DNA of 64,000 nt. It comes from Spirosoma sordidisoli (lineage in GTDB: Bacteria > Bacteroidota > Bacteroidia > Cytophagales > Spirosomataceae). The notes below the pieces were generated by a model. That model had not been told where the DNA came from and searched no databases. It saw only the letters and a program-made list of their open reading frames with translations. Position numbers and translations under genes: made by a program. The stretch lies in NCBI RefSeq assembly GCF_004138325.1, contig NZ_SBLB01000004.1, forward strand, positions 620,001-684,000, given 5' to 3'. Shown one piece after another: positions 39,070 to 42,918 of the stretch; positions within the stretch are counted from its first letter, which is position 1; the number at the start of each line of letters is the position of its first letter.

Positions 39070-41241
39070 TCAAGGCATGGGTTTCAGCCCTTCCCACTTC
39101 ACCATCCAGCGTCCGTTTTTAGGGAATCCCGGCGTAGGGGTGGTGTTGCCATCGTAGCCAGCACACATCAGCGCTACGGCCGCCAGCAAACCACCGTTGC
39201 CAGGCAGGTAGAGCGTAAGTCGCTTGTCCTGGTAGTTATGGCCGTTAACCAGGTACGTGTTTTTCGCCACCTCTTTGAACAACGCATCCAGCGCGCGGTC
39301 GGGCTGCCCCAGCCGGGTAGCCGTCATGGCCACCATCGGAAAATCCCAGCCCCAGGTATGATCCCAGTGCCAGACCCGGTCAACGGTATCGTAGGTACGC
39401 TGCATCACCGCCCGGTCGACCACGCCGTTGGCGGGCAGGGTACTCAGCGCGGCCAGCACAGCCGGGTGATCGATGGTATAGCGGCTGTCGGGCGAGTATG
39501 AATCCGTCACGTTCTCGGCCGCCCGGTATACGCCGTCCTGCTGTGGCAAAGGAGCCAGCCCGTCAATGACCCGCTGCCAGTCTGGATTGGGCGGCAGGTT
39601 GAGCCGGGTACGCCAGCGCTGGGCTGCCTGCAGGCCCCATGTCCAGTAGGCCAGTTCGTAAGGTGGGTTCAGGGTCTGGGCCGGGTCGAAGCATTCCTGC
39701 GCCGGAATAATACCCTTCCCCAGATCATAACGGCCCGTTTTGGGGTTCAGGCTGGCGAACGAAGCCATGAAGTCGGCGGTTTCAAAAATCACGGTCCGGT
39801 ATTGTTCCAGAACGGCTTTTGATGGCTGGTTCCGGTAAATTAGTTCGGCCAGGTAGATCGGATGCGGCTGTTGCCAGATCAGGAAAGACCCTACCGATGA
39901 GGCTGTTTCGCCCCCGTTCGGATCGGTCATCTTTTGCCAGCGAACGCCCCGGTACCCCTGTCGGCGGGCTATCTCCCGGGCCCCCGCCAGTGCCCGCTGG
40001 TACCAGCCCATACTTTTTGACAACAGATCGGTACGGCCCCAGAGGGCGTAATGGGCCGAATGCCACCAGTACATTTCCATATGGGGCCTACCATACCAGC
40101 TGTTATAGGTCAGTCCCGTTTCCTGCGGGGGCGAGTCGCCGGCGCATTGTACGCGGGTCAGGTACTGCGACAGCACAACGCGCCGTTCGAGTTCGGCGGC
40201 TCGCGGGTCGGTGCTGCCCGCCAGATCAATGGCCCCACCCGACTGCCAGAACCGCTCCCAGCCCAACCGGCTGCTGGTCTGTACCTCGGTAAAAGTGGGC
40301 AACCGACTGGGTAACGACTCCGCCGAAAACTGCACTACAGCTTCGAAAGCCGACGCTCCTGACGGCTCTATCCTGAAATCATGGCCAGCAGCCGCCCGCA
40401 CCGGCGCAGGCTGGCTCAACCGGGCCGTCACGGAATAGCGGTCCTGATCAAGCTGGCGATGGAACCGTACCGACGTGGGCCCCGGGCGCTCCAGCCGGGT
40501 CTGATGCGCCGATGCGCTGGCGTAGTAAGTCCCTACGTCGGTGAATGCATTAGTCGGGTATGGAAACCGGAGCCGGAGCGAGATTCGTTGCTGCCGAAGT
40601 AGGTCCGACACAACCCGTACGGCTACGATATCCTGCTGAACATGGGCGCAGGTGGTCACGCTGACGGGAGCGCCTTCAACGGTAAACGTACTGCTGATGG
40701 TACCTGTCCACAGATCCAGTTGCTGCCGAACGTTCTTCAGATCACCCAGTTGTGCCGCCTGCCCATCTTTTTTGAGGATAATGAAGCCCAGATTACCCAG
40801 CTGAAGCCGGTGCGGATTTTGCCGAAAGTAGTCGGCGGCCTGCTGATGGCGCCCCGCCTGCCGCCATTGCACAGCATACGGACGTGGCGTGCCGTTGACC
40901 TCGACCGATTGCAGCGTCTCGGTAAACTGATACCTGGCGGGATTAGGAAAGCGGTGCCAGCCCCATTCGGACTGAGTGCCCAGCGGAATACCGCGGGCAT
41001 ACTGCTCGGGAAACGATTGCAGACCGGTAGCATCTACCGTAAACCCAAACCGACCGTTGCCCACCGTTAGCGACCCGAGCGTATCGGGCTGGGTGATCGT
41101 TACCCGATGCCGATCTACCACTGCCCGTCGGTCTATCGGCTGAGCCTGGCCCGCACCGATGTTCCACAGCACGAGCAGCATCTTTAATCCACTCCGCAGA
41201 GGCAACAAAGCCTGTCCATATGGTTTTGATATTAATAGCAT
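39070..41241 (-). CDS. Exported glycoside-hydrolase-like protein, (alpha/alpha)6 type
   Basis: 723 residues from the ATG at 41241. The longer frame back to 41364 runs into the tRNA-derived repeat and should not be coding. The N-terminus has a basic region then LLVLWNIGAGQAQ, a plausible signal peptide. Residues ~40-320 are beta-sandwich-like and the rest an alpha-helical barrel with aromatic, glycan-binding segments (SWYGRPHMEMYWWHSAHYALWGR, HWDHTWGWDFPM). This layout is that of GH65/GH95-type six-hairpin enzymes. I cannot assign substrate or catalytic acid with certainty. A lone gene, no SusCD pair nearby. Confidence 0.75.
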   Translation of the reverse strand: MLLISKPYGQALLPLRSGLKMLLVLWNIGAGQAQPIDRRAVVDRHRVTITQPDTLGSLTVGNGRFGFTVDATGLQSFPEQYARGIPLGTQSEWGWHRFPNPARYQFTETLQSVEVNGTPRPYAVQWRQAGRHQQAADYFRQNPHRLQLGNLGFIILKKDGQAAQLGDLKNVRQQLDLWTGTISSTFTVEGAPVSVTTCAHVQQDIVAVRVVSDLLRQQRISLRLRFPYPTNAFTDVGTYYASASAHQTRLERPGPTSVRFHRQLDQDRYSVTARLSQPAPVRAAAGHDFRIEPSGASAFEAVVQFSAESLPSRLPTFTEVQTSSRLGWERFWQSGGAIDLAGSTDPRAAELERRVVLSQYLTRVQCAGDSPPQETGLTYNSWYGRPHMEMYWWHSAHYALWGRTDLLSKSMGWYQRALAGAREIARRQGYRGVRWQKMTDPNGGETASSVGSFLIWQQPHPIYLAELIYRNQPSKAVLEQYRTVIFETADFMASFASLNPKTGRYDLGKGIIPAQECFDPAQTLNPPYELAYWTWGLQAAQRWRTRLNLPPNPDWQRVIDGLAPLPQQDGVYRAAENVTDSYSPDSRYTIDHPAVLAALSTLPANGVVDRAVMQRTYDTVDRVWHWDHTWGWDFPMVAMTATRLGQPDRALDALFKEVAKNTYLVNGHNYQDKRLTLYLPGNGGLLAAVALMCAGYDGNTTPTPGFPKNGRWMVKWEGLKPMP

Positions 41242-41355: not shown

Positions 41356-41425
41356 CATAAACACAAAAGCCGCTGATGTCAGCGGCTCTGTTTGTTTCTT
41401 ACCCTTTAGAGGTACCAGGAGCGGG
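41356..41425 (-). repeat. Distal direct repeat, putative attachment site with tRNA-Leu 3' fragment
   Basis: The first 45 bases are identical to 42775-42819, and the last 17 (gaggtaccaggagcggg) are identical to the T-arm/acceptor end of tRNA-Leu at 42830-42846. The middle differs by a few substitutions and a 2-nt gap. A GC palindrome (cccggcaaggccggg, 41341-41355) abuts the repeat. Confidence 0.75.
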
Positions 41426-41495
41426 TACGTTGATTCTTTTCAAATTGAATTTTTATGTTGCGATAATTCTCCAGAGTATTTTGTAATAGCTTTGC

Positions 41496-42392
41496 TTACT
41501 GCCAAAGCGGTTCATTGTCCCAACCGGCTTCAAAACCCATTGCATTTTTATCCACTTCTGGGTAGTTATGAAATAGAGCAGACAGTTTCTGCAAAAAACG
41601 ATGATTGGGATTCACCGTTGACAACAAGAAAAGAATCATAGATAGGGCGAAATATGTCCGGTTATTGCTCACTAACGGGTTTATCAACCAAGGTTTGCGG
41701 GGGTTTTTGGGAATACGAGGTTGAATACTCATTACTCGATTCCACAACCGGCTATGATGAGCACATACGTTACGTAGGTAGACGATACAATGAAGCCATG
41801 AAGCAAACGTACCATCATCAAGCCCAAAATAGCTCGCGATTTGTCTCTTCTCTATAGTTGTATTCAAATTCTTGTATAACATAGATAGCGAACCGAATGA
41901 AGCAACTTCCAACATCATCCAGCTCGGCGGCAACGGATCGTTATATTTCTGCCGGAACGCTCTTATAAATTCTTCATCGCTACGACTATATTCGGCCATT
42001 AGGCTACTAATAGTTCTTGTGTGGCTGGCCGTATCGGTAAACAAAGTTGTATCTGTGAACCAGAAAGGGCCAAACCTATGTGAGAGCACATAAATCATGT
42101 GTGCTCGTATAGCCACCTCTATTTTTTCCAACTCGGCCAACACTAGTTTTCGTAGCTCCCGGTCAAAGCAATACAGCCGAAAACCTGTTTCAAACGTGGC
42201 TCCCGGCTTAAAGCGATGAGTTTGCTTATTATCTAAAAGAGGATACCAATAGCCGCTCAGTCGGTAATAGCTAACCTGAGCCAACAAATGAAGGGCTTTA
42301 ACGTCGTCATGAACGATTAAACCTCTTCCTTTAAGTCGATTAAGTTGATCCTGATAAGTGAGAGCAGGCTTGCGATAAGGGACTTTACTCAT
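41496..42392 (-). CDS. Abi_2 (AbiD/AbiF-type) HEPN protein, candidate abortive-infection RNase
   Basis: 298 residues matching the Abi_2 family along its length: YQDQLNRLKGRGLIVHD near the start, LAQVSYYRLSGYWYPLL (~35-51), FDRELRKLVLAELEKIEVAIRAHM (~75-98), and PPSWMMLEVASFGSLSMLY. The HEPN RNase motif R-x4-H is intact in LRNVCAHHSRLWNR (~207-220). AbiF-type proteins act in phage defence or as RNA-cleaving toxins and have been reported with adjacent structured RNAs and as relatives of Cas13. Context fits: the only protein in a tRNA-anchored islet, with its own TTG-19-TAACTTTG promoter and a hairpin-plus-T-run directly before the ATG. Target and partner are unknown. Confidence 0.88.
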   Translation of the reverse strand: MSKVPYRKPALTYQDQLNRLKGRGLIVHDDVKALHLLAQVSYYRLSGYWYPLLDNKQTHRFKPGATFETGFRLYCFDRELRKLVLAELEKIEVAIRAHMIYVLSHRFGPFWFTDTTLFTDTASHTRTISSLMAEYSRSDEEFIRAFRQKYNDPLPPSWMMLEVASFGSLSMLYKNLNTTIEKRQIASYFGLDDGTFASWLHCIVYLRNVCAHHSRLWNRVMSIQPRIPKNPRKPWLINPLVSNNRTYFALSMILFLLSTVNPNHRFLQKLSALFHNYPEVDKNAMGFEAGWDNEPLWQ

Positions 42393-42397
42393 GCCCT

Positions 42398-42450
42398 AAA
42401 AATAGAAAGCTCACCCTAAGCGCGCTGTTCTAACGGGAAGCGGGGTGAGC
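42398..42450 (-). terminator. Terminator/attenuator hairpin directly upstream of abi
   Basis: On the minus strand: stem gctcaccc/gggtgagc (42443-42450, 42409-42416) followed by tttctattttt, ending 6 bp before the abi ATG. It would end the upstream non-coding transcript and limit readthrough into abi, or regulate abi if the hairpin is opened. Confidence 0.65.
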
Positions 42451-42735
42451 ATGTTGATGCAAAGTTAATATATACATTACCATTAGCAAAAGATCCCATC
42501 TCTTTTGTTCAATGACCTCAGTGGATAGTACTACCGGGCCTTGAACGAAATGTTATTGCCTTCAAACTTCGGTTAGGCGTTGGCAAAGCTCACACAGTCT
42601 TTTGTCAGTTCATTCCAATCGGTGTTTTCTCTACCTTGAGAAAGATGAACGCTTTTTTGTCCAACTGCTAATCTTCCTGCATAAGTGCGTGCGTATAGTT
42701 AGTCGCAATAGCTCAAAATAACCTAAATACCAAGG
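42403..42735 (-). ncRNA. Candidate structured non-coding RNA upstream of abi
   Basis: About 330 nt without an ORF, between a perfect -7 box (42742-42749) and an intrinsic terminator (42398-42450). Local hairpins: tttctc/gagaaa (42626-42643), and tttgttcaa/ttgaacgaa around 42503-42549 enclosing a near-palindrome (ggatagtactacc). Proposed by analogy with AbiF loci that carry an RNA partner; no covariance evidence. Confidence 0.35.
42460..42489 (-). promoter_or_regulatory. abi promoter
   Basis: On the minus strand TTG (42487-42489), 19-bp spacer, TAACTTTG (42460-42467): a textbook Bacteroidetes promoter. The predicted start near 42453 coincides with the 5' base of the hairpin at 42409-42450. 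Confidence 0.6.
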
Positions 42736-42741
42736 AAGATA

Positions 42742-42749
42742 CAAAGGTA
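42742..42749 (-). promoter_or_regulatory. Putative -7 box of the non-coding transcript
   Basis: TACCTTTG on the minus strand, perfect TAnnTTTG, 26 bp inside the tRNA-proximal repeat. No clear -33 TTG. Confidence 0.4.
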
Positions 42750-42774
42750 AGCGGCCCCTGTGTTGGTGTACCTA

Positions 42775-42846
42775 CATAAACACAAAAGCCGCTGATGTCA
42801 GCGGCTCTGTTTGTTTCTTCCCCTTTCGGGAGGTACCAGGAGCGGG
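42775..42846 (-). repeat. tRNA-proximal direct repeat, putative attachment site
   Basis: Contains the tRNA-Leu 3' end (42834-42846) and the terminator behind it. Paired with 41356-41425. Confidence 0.75.
42784..42808 (-). terminator. tRNA-Leu terminator
   Basis: On the minus strand: stem gccgctga/tcagcggc (42798-42805, 42788-42795) with a 2-nt core loop, then TTTTGTGTTT. The same hairpin is present in the distal repeat. Confidence 0.75.
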
Positions 42847-42918
42847 AGTCGAACCCGCACGGGCTTGTGGCCCACAGGATTTTAAGTCCGGCGTGTCTAC
42901 CGATTCCACCATCCCGGC
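42834..42918 (-). tRNA. tRNA-Leu(UAA)
   Basis: 85 nt, long variable arm as expected for Leu. The acceptor gccggga pairs with tcctggt (G-U at 1:72 and 4:69). The D arm has ggtagaca, the anticodon loop is cttaaaa giving UAA, and the T arm is gcgggttcgactcccgc. The discriminator is A. CCA is not fully encoded (acct follows). Confidence 0.93.

Follow-up and report, generated by a model that had tools for sequence, protein, structure and literature searches.

A small Abi_2 islet between terminator-containing repeats at tRNA-Leu(UAA) of Spirosoma sordidisoli is probably an integrase-less remnant with a putative AbiF-like RNA-toxin module

Introduction

How does a single abortive-infection gene come to lie between two copies of a tRNA 3' end, with no integrase beside it? 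The question is raised by a 64-kb stretch of the S. sordidisoli genome (contig NZ_SBLB01000004.1, positions 620,001 to 684,000), hereafter the window. An earlier note on this DNA had described a small islet at a tRNA-Leu gene and left two options for it, mobilisation in trans or a stable remnant. Here we describe the repeats, the protein and the RNA of this islet, compare the same tRNA locus across the genus and weigh the possible origins.

Results

Two copies of a tRNA-Leu end and terminator enclose GC-poor DNA

The insertion target is an intact tRNA-Leu(UAA) gene on the minus strand (42832-42918; ARAGORN; Rfam RF00005, 52.9 bits). The proximal repeat (42775-42846, minus strand) comprises the terminal 14-15 nt of this tRNA and a terminator with its hairpin at 42787-42806, and the distal repeat (41356-41425, minus strand) is a copy of the tRNA-Leu 3' end and terminator with the hairpin at 41368-41387; both hairpins, on the same strand, were located by sequence and inverted repeat. 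Alignment of the two copies (70 and 72 nt) showed 68 of 70 aligned bases in agreement over the whole unit, with a long block of 52 nt containing one mismatch (41356-41407 and 42775-42826) and an identical short block of 17 nt (41409-41425 and 42830-42846). The local alignment score of 123, compared with a maximum of 27 in 60 shuffles, bears out the ~70-bp direct repeats carrying a tRNA-Leu 3' end and terminator that the earlier note had reported. The repeated unit extends from about 14 nt inside the tRNA-Leu 3' end to 57 nt past it.

Among 41 tRNA genes of the genome that were tested up to 8 kb downstream, only tRNA-Leu(UAA) has a comparable repeat, and five others gave weak or partial matches. 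A 17-nt copy of a tRNA-Asp 3' end (94%) was seen 4.8 kb downstream of that gene on contig C1 of the same genome (locus L169) and possibly marks a second small element. Three other tRNA genes (C12:140948, C1:184083 and C1:1856056) have integrase domains no more than about 0.8 kb downstream, that of the last lying in a short frame of 179 codons.

Since the distal repeat holds a tRNA 3' end and a terminator, it might be the leftover of a tandem tRNA-Leu gene, an objection anticipated in the earlier note. Inspection of the sequence revealed no tRNA homology in the distal repeat beyond its 14-17 nt of tRNA end, ARAGORN, applied to the sequence read around 34 loci of the genus, detected a second tRNA-Leu(UAA) in none of them, and the DNA between the copies is of foreign composition. 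We regard a decayed tandem gene as scarcely credible.

The enclosed DNA (41426-42774, 1349 nt) has a GC content of 0.422 versus 0.557 for the 64-kb window, and among 1254 windows of islet length only the one on the islet is as low; a GC comparison with the surroundings, as had been proposed for this segment, thus placed the GC minimum of the window on it. Read on the minus strand from the tRNA, the islet contains an AlbA_2 gene remnant (about 42576-42688), a 60-nt RNA (42396-42455) and the abi gene (41496-42392). The single Abi_2 gene recognised earlier was recovered, and the RNA and the AlbA_2 remnant are further parts absent from that description. Apart from abi, no ORF of more than 75 codons lies wholly between the repeats, no integrase or integrase remnant was found there, and the closest integrase match on the contig is about 577 kb away, in line with the absence of an integrase noted before. 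A glycoside-hydrolase frame running into the distal repeat had been taken as a sign of insertion beside an older gene. This reading found no support: the extension is just an open frame, and the glycoside-hydrolase ORF found in the sister species begins at a methionine corresponding to position 41241.

The abi gene encodes a conserved Abi_2 protein

The 298-aa protein encoded at 41496-42392 (minus strand) belongs to the Abi_2/AbiD-AbiF family (Pfam E 8.9e-60; PADLOC AbiD 4e-79) and is the sole Abi_2 match in the genome at a threshold of E 0.001. The signature motif of HEPN proteins is R-x4-6-H. It is intact here as R207-x4-H212, within RNVCAHH at residues 207-213, which align with PDB 8vz6, and the alignment with this structure covers the whole length of the protein (E 8.7e-75). 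Sections of a review identify 8VZ6 as the PbAbiF-ncRNA complex of PbAbiF-AbiFr and describe AbiF proteins as ancestral to Cas13 (PMC12737573). For Clostridioides difficile, the sections of the report on RCd22-AbiF that deal with the module describe AbiF as a toxin that RCd22, an RNA encoded upstream, neutralises; RCd22 is made as a short transcript, and transcription continues into the abiF gene less often (PMC12373285). By analogy, we interpret the module in the window as a probable AbiF-like RNA antitoxin with a HEPN RNase toxin, and Abi_2 would be an RNase with a role in phage defence.

Comparison with the sister species S. lacussanchae CPCC 100624 (G009, locus L115) showed 91% identity for Abi_2 and a dN/dS of 0.11; the protein is thus maintained by purifying selection. 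The dS of abi (0.42) is above the 0.09-0.27 of 11 flanking ORFs, the lowest of which comes from a partial alignment, and could reflect a weaker codon bias (GC3 0.43) or, alternatively, the exchange of an allele. Searches for relatives on mobile DNA revealed none in IMG/VR. Plasmid relatives amounted to 343 records, all below 60% identity and with 42% at most in the best 8 of 343, and phage relatives to 10 records, with 30-32% identity in the best 8 of 10.

A covarying RNA directly precedes abi

The putative AbiF-like RNA (42396-42455, minus strand) was recognised by covariation across 34 loci. Its 60 nt form an 8-bp outer stem, a 4-bp inner stem, a 12-nt loop and a U-run, its end is separated from the abi start codon by 3 nt, and it shows zero differences between the window and the sister species. 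Just upstream of the RNA, TAACTTTG (42460-42467, minus strand) fits the Bacteroidetes -7 element TAnnTTTG, and we take it to be part of the promoter. The RNA and the abi gene are probably co-transcribed.

A hairpin of the same shape was found directly before an abi gene at 34 loci, in 31 distinct sequences, and the limit of the 60-nt stretch on the gene side varies from 1 nt inside the start codon to 15 nt ahead of it, the start being inferred from protein alignment. The 34 rows comprise 11 of 23 family loci and 23 of 25 loci from species genomes. Two of the latter were not used, L115 (the same as L077, the sister-species locus already counted) and L139 (no match to R1, the model described below); L087-L095 and L097, ten distant loci without a pattern match, and L096 and L098, with partial genes, were also omitted. 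Across the 12 pairs, all 372 of 372 cells form standard pairs, and six pairs changed on both sides, in 42 cells in all. None of 500 shuffles reached the observed value in four of five measures and 385 of 500 did so in the fifth (further pair types), a count that is not a probability, since the sequences are related; the rows, moreover, were selected by a pattern fitting the motif. Shifting the partner by 1 to 3 columns abolished the pairing.

The Rfam abiF RNA (RF03085) has the same architecture, with an outer stem, a short inner stem and a 6-nt bulge on the 3' side. Searched up to E 10, its model left the window, L076, L078, L079, L083, L116 and L117 unmatched; on 12 other loci, L092 scored barely over the cut-off (37.3 vs 37 bits) and L088 under it (29.9). 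A model built from the 34 RNA loci, R1, scores the RNA in the window, which is one of its training sequences, with 87.3 bits. Run on 222 family genomes, R1 produced 14 matches of at least 64 bits, 11 of which are abi loci used in training. The other three, in G090, G121 and G124, are without an abi gene in the ~3 kb behind them; these copies (L190, L191 and L192) are well formed (79.1, 77.7 and 64.6 bits, respectively) and are possibly solitary antitoxin RNAs. Two matches near 40 bits precede Abi_2 genes of G001 and G032, and the other 15 of the 31 rows listed are weaker. The covarying RNA is present at Abi_2 genes in Flavobacteriaceae, Bacteroidales, Cytophagaceae and other records. As in the characterised AbiF systems, it may serve as an RNA antitoxin to Abi_2.

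An AlbA_2 pseudogene points to a change of cargo

DNA and tblastn matches to a congener (G019) revealed, at 42576-42688 on the minus strand, a decayed 5'-terminal piece of a Schlafen AlbA_2 gene that is broken by stops and a frameshift. It is 77% identical to the G019 DNA over 110 nt and 57% identical to the protein over 30 residues (tblastn E 3.8e-8). At the same tRNA-Leu, G019 carries an intact AlbA_2 gene of 574 codons, whose product matches SLFN_AlbA_2 (2.3e-13) and HATPase_c_4 (4.2e-19) in Pfam. Because the start of an AlbA_2 gene persists as a pseudogene beside the abi module, the cargo of the islet has changed at least once.

The same tRNA-Leu carries different elements across the genus

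The tRNA pair was located in 34 of 36 genus genomes, the window included, and a distal copy was searched for within 8 kb at 33 loci (three with less sequence; G021 was too short). Among the 33 other loci, only that of S. lacussanchae holds this abi islet, at the same position and with the tRNA part of the distal copy lost, so that a fixed presence of abi in all relatives, which would have spoken against insertion, does not apply. The islet probably settled before the two sister species separated. The two repeat copies in the window (68/70) are closer to each other than the two species are at the proximal (66/71) or the distal copy (60/70), a sign of gene conversion or of some more recent event.

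A search of the relatives for other cargo between the same repeats, as had been suggested, was successful in G012 and G019. The G012 islet (1.3 kb, copies 84% alike) contains another gene, 257 to 284 codons long, for which no significant match was found in Pfam, PADLOC, NCBIfam or PDB; its product may be PIN-like, to judge from the motif DTN ... E ... ND..D ... YWT.D.K, seen across four aligned homologues. The G019 islet (2.4 kb) has the AlbA_2 gene as cargo and a weak distal repeat (score 35 vs 27 in shuffles). G019 also has an Abi_2 gene elsewhere in its genome, away from tRNA-Leu, with 73% identity to the one in the window; the module therefore moves independently of this site as well. A third islet, in G011 (3.0 kb), has a distal copy of 13/14 nt that fails the shuffle test (23 vs 28). 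A distal match in G034 (score 32 vs 27) was discarded as a hairpin without a tRNA end. The repeats of the window, G012 and G019 all start at the same tRNA-internal boundary, CCCGCTC. At the right end of the G012 islet, the stretch of about 65-70 nt that adjoins the distal copy on its inner side is related to its counterparts in G011 (E 2.8e-11) and G019 (E 1.8e-7), both values including 7-14 nt of repeat; with the repeat excluded, each comparison gave 0 of 500 shuffles. The right end of the window islet resembles none of nine other islets tested.

Longer elements use the same tRNA. A second exact tRNA 3' end was found 46.8 kb away in G008, 12.2 kb in G010, 24.6 kb in G017 and 15.6 kb in G027, in each case with an integrase gene adjoining the distal tRNA copy (Pfam-checked in G027 and G010), and the G027 element holds an Abi_2 gene 44% identical to that of the window, 1 kb from the tRNA. 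Integrase pieces lie 0.35 to 2.3 kb past the tRNA in G002 (Pfam Phage_integrase 5.1e-11), G011, G022 and G032. At 22 of the 34 loci, neither a passing tRNA-end repeat nor an integrase fragment was found; one of these is G016, where a stretch resembling an integrase lies about 11 kb downstream. Behind the tRNA of G020 come a ribonucleotide-reductase-like ORF (by eye) and an HSP20 gene, without islet or glycoside hydrolase, and this locus is the nearest thing to an empty site. The integrase elements of 12-47 kb and the alternative single-gene cargo together support the proposal of site-specific insertion at the tRNA-Leu 3' end.

The tRNA-Leu(UAA) gene itself is interrupted at the anticodon by ~230 or 740 nt in 7 of 34 genus loci (L057:3151-3893 in G009, L058 in G023, L063 in G031, L069 in G030, L070 in G022, L071 in G012 and L072 in G018), and a Rfam group I intron scored over its cut-off in five of the seven. 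The 740-nt inserts of G023 and G031 contain an ORF of 171-172 codons with an HNH-like stretch (by eye), which is split in G009. The tRNA-Leu of the window is without intron. Our search for literature joining tRNA-Leu, group I introns and Bacteroidetes found none.

The origin of the islet

An origin with no site-specific (integrase) recombination at CCCGCTCCTGGTAC would have the terminator duplicated by unequal or illegitimate recombination and the foreign DNA brought in by homologous recombination. Identity that reaches 57 nt past the tRNA, across the terminator, and so takes in more than the tRNA end is consistent with this, as are Abi_2 genes between direct repeats in L126 (143 nt, 97%) and L103 (281 nt, 88%), in neither of which a tRNA gene was found. 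However, the CCCGCTC boundary is common to the window, G012 and G019, integrases and integrase fragments occur at the same tRNA, and nothing similar was seen at the 40 other tRNA genes tested in the genome; together these observations make such a duplication very improbable.

A minimal cassette that is still mobile, with islet and one repeat copy moved in trans by integrases using the same tRNA, would explain why different single genes follow the same start in the window, G012 and G019, and why the G012 right end, directly against the repeat, has relatives in G011 and G019 although the cargo differs. Integrases that could act in this way are present at this tRNA in G008, G010, G017 and G027, and both the closeness of the two copies in the window and the high abi dS fit such movement. 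A parallel is the integrase-free 3.3-kb element with two Abi genes at tRNA-Arg of the uncultured Flavobacteriaceae 2-919 (L135:4147-7520). On the other hand, the integrase fragments in four relatives indicate decay of whole elements, the window islet lacks the right end common to G012, G011 and G019, an AlbA_2 pseudogene would have been carried along, and the islet occupies the same place in both sister species, with the distal copy decayed in one. We give continued mobility an outside chance. The broader proposition that one-gene defence cassettes, each a cargo with one copy of a tRNA 3' end and terminator, are exchanged at tRNA genes by trans-acting integrases appears to us unlikely.

The L135 element is bounded by 14 nt of the tRNA-Arg end, has 21-nt near-identical repeats near both ends and carries Abi_2 and a putAbiC-like gene (23.3 bits, cut-off 22), with no integrase-sized ORF. 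In Bacteroidales UBA4788 (L131:4218-5530), Abi_2 and the RNA lie directly behind a tRNA-Val and are followed by a 13/15 copy of its 3' end (E 0.42, which may be chance).

The islet is, in our view, probably an integrase-less remnant, similar to a cis-mobilizable element (CIME), at a tRNA hotspot with cargo turnover, and it keeps an RNA-toxin module. We favour this origin because of the integrase fragments in four relatives, the AlbA_2 pseudogene inside the islet and the presence of the islet in both sister species. Accordingly, of the two options left by the earlier note the stable remnant is preferred, and movement in trans is a lesser possibility. A tyrosine-recombinase element would have entered the tRNA-Leu(UAA) 3' end in a Spirosoma ancestor, with the repeats as its attL and attR. 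Loss of the genes for integrase and transfer would then have ended the mobility of the islet, and the cargo would have been replaced at least once, leaving the AlbA_2 start as a pseudogene, while selection may have retained the two-part AbiF-like module. In this module, the short structured RNA would be transcribed first and the HEPN RNase reached by read-through of the terminator-like end of the RNA, which would keep the RNase inactive until infection disturbs the balance. On this reading, integrase elements have inserted at this tRNA time and again across the genus; some decayed, and a single useful gene was left behind between the repeats.

Several observations sit less easily with a remnant. 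No integrase remnant was found in the window islet, and its right end is unlike the nine others tested. The genomes compared include no very close relative with an unoccupied tRNA-Leu site, and 22 of 34 loci show neither islet repeat nor integrase fragment. Both copies have the same kind of terminator, whereas elements of the G027 type differ on the tRNA side. The abi dS, high against the flanking genes, may reflect an exchanged allele instead of plain descent. Finally, the Abi_2 gene of G019 is off tRNA-Leu, and the repeat is weak in G019, failing in G011 and decayed in G009.

Discussion

Similar to CIMEs, as defined in the relevant section of PMC5704250, the islet has attL- and attR-like repeats at a tRNA 3' end, has kept its cargo and is without integration or transfer genes. 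In contrast to them, it measures 1.35 kb, holds one intact gene and has repeats that include a terminator. CIMEs derive from an ICE or IME by deletion; pieces of an integrase were found at this tRNA in four relatives and none in the window islet, for which such an origin may be considered. CIMEs are also mobilised by accretion with an incoming element, a route that is at most hypothetical for the islet. It also differs from autonomous tRNA-targeting tyrosine-recombinase elements in having no integrase gene of its own. The genus elements of G008, G010, G017 and G027 share the target tRNA and the 3'-end copy at the far border, but they are 12-47 kb long, carry their own integrase, have another terminator on the tRNA side and show a longer tRNA copy (24 nt in G027, 51 in G010 and 57 in G008). 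Tycheposons and tRNA-bounded flexible islands, in the account given in parts of PMC10872708, are likewise tRNA-anchored with variable cargo, and one island type there has tRNA 3'-end repeats like those of the islet; tycheposons are, however, 4-200 kb long with a tyrosine recombinase, which the islet lacks.

With AbiF/AbiFr systems, represented by C. difficile RCd22-AbiF and PbAbiF-AbiFr (8VZ6) in the relevant sections of PMC12373285 and PMC12737573, the module shares an Abi_2 protein alignable over its full length and, immediately before the gene, a structured RNA in which an outer stem and a short inner stem are combined with a U-run. Unlike those systems, its RNA is unmatched by RF03085 up to E 10. 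The same sections of PMC12373285 give RCd22 two abiF motifs, as against one hairpin in the window, and place RCd22-AbiF on a prophage, as against a chromosomal islet here.

The islet thus fits CIMEs as a class and the module fits AbiF systems, both memberships being partial. As far as our searches go, three features are new: the islet is very small, its slot takes different single genes between repeats that contain a terminator, and the RNA has a form missed by the Rfam abiF model in the seven places tested. In the portions of the literature on Spirosoma genomic islands at tRNA genes that we covered, we found no description of such an islet.

The covarying RNA would enlarge the known set of AbiF RNAs. 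If one-gene cassettes were exchanged in trans, toxin modules would circulate without a recombinase of their own. The different genes found in one slot across species make cargo exchange without a resident integrase directly testable. In Spirosoma, one tRNA gene shows the stages by which integrative elements may shrink to a single selected defence gene.
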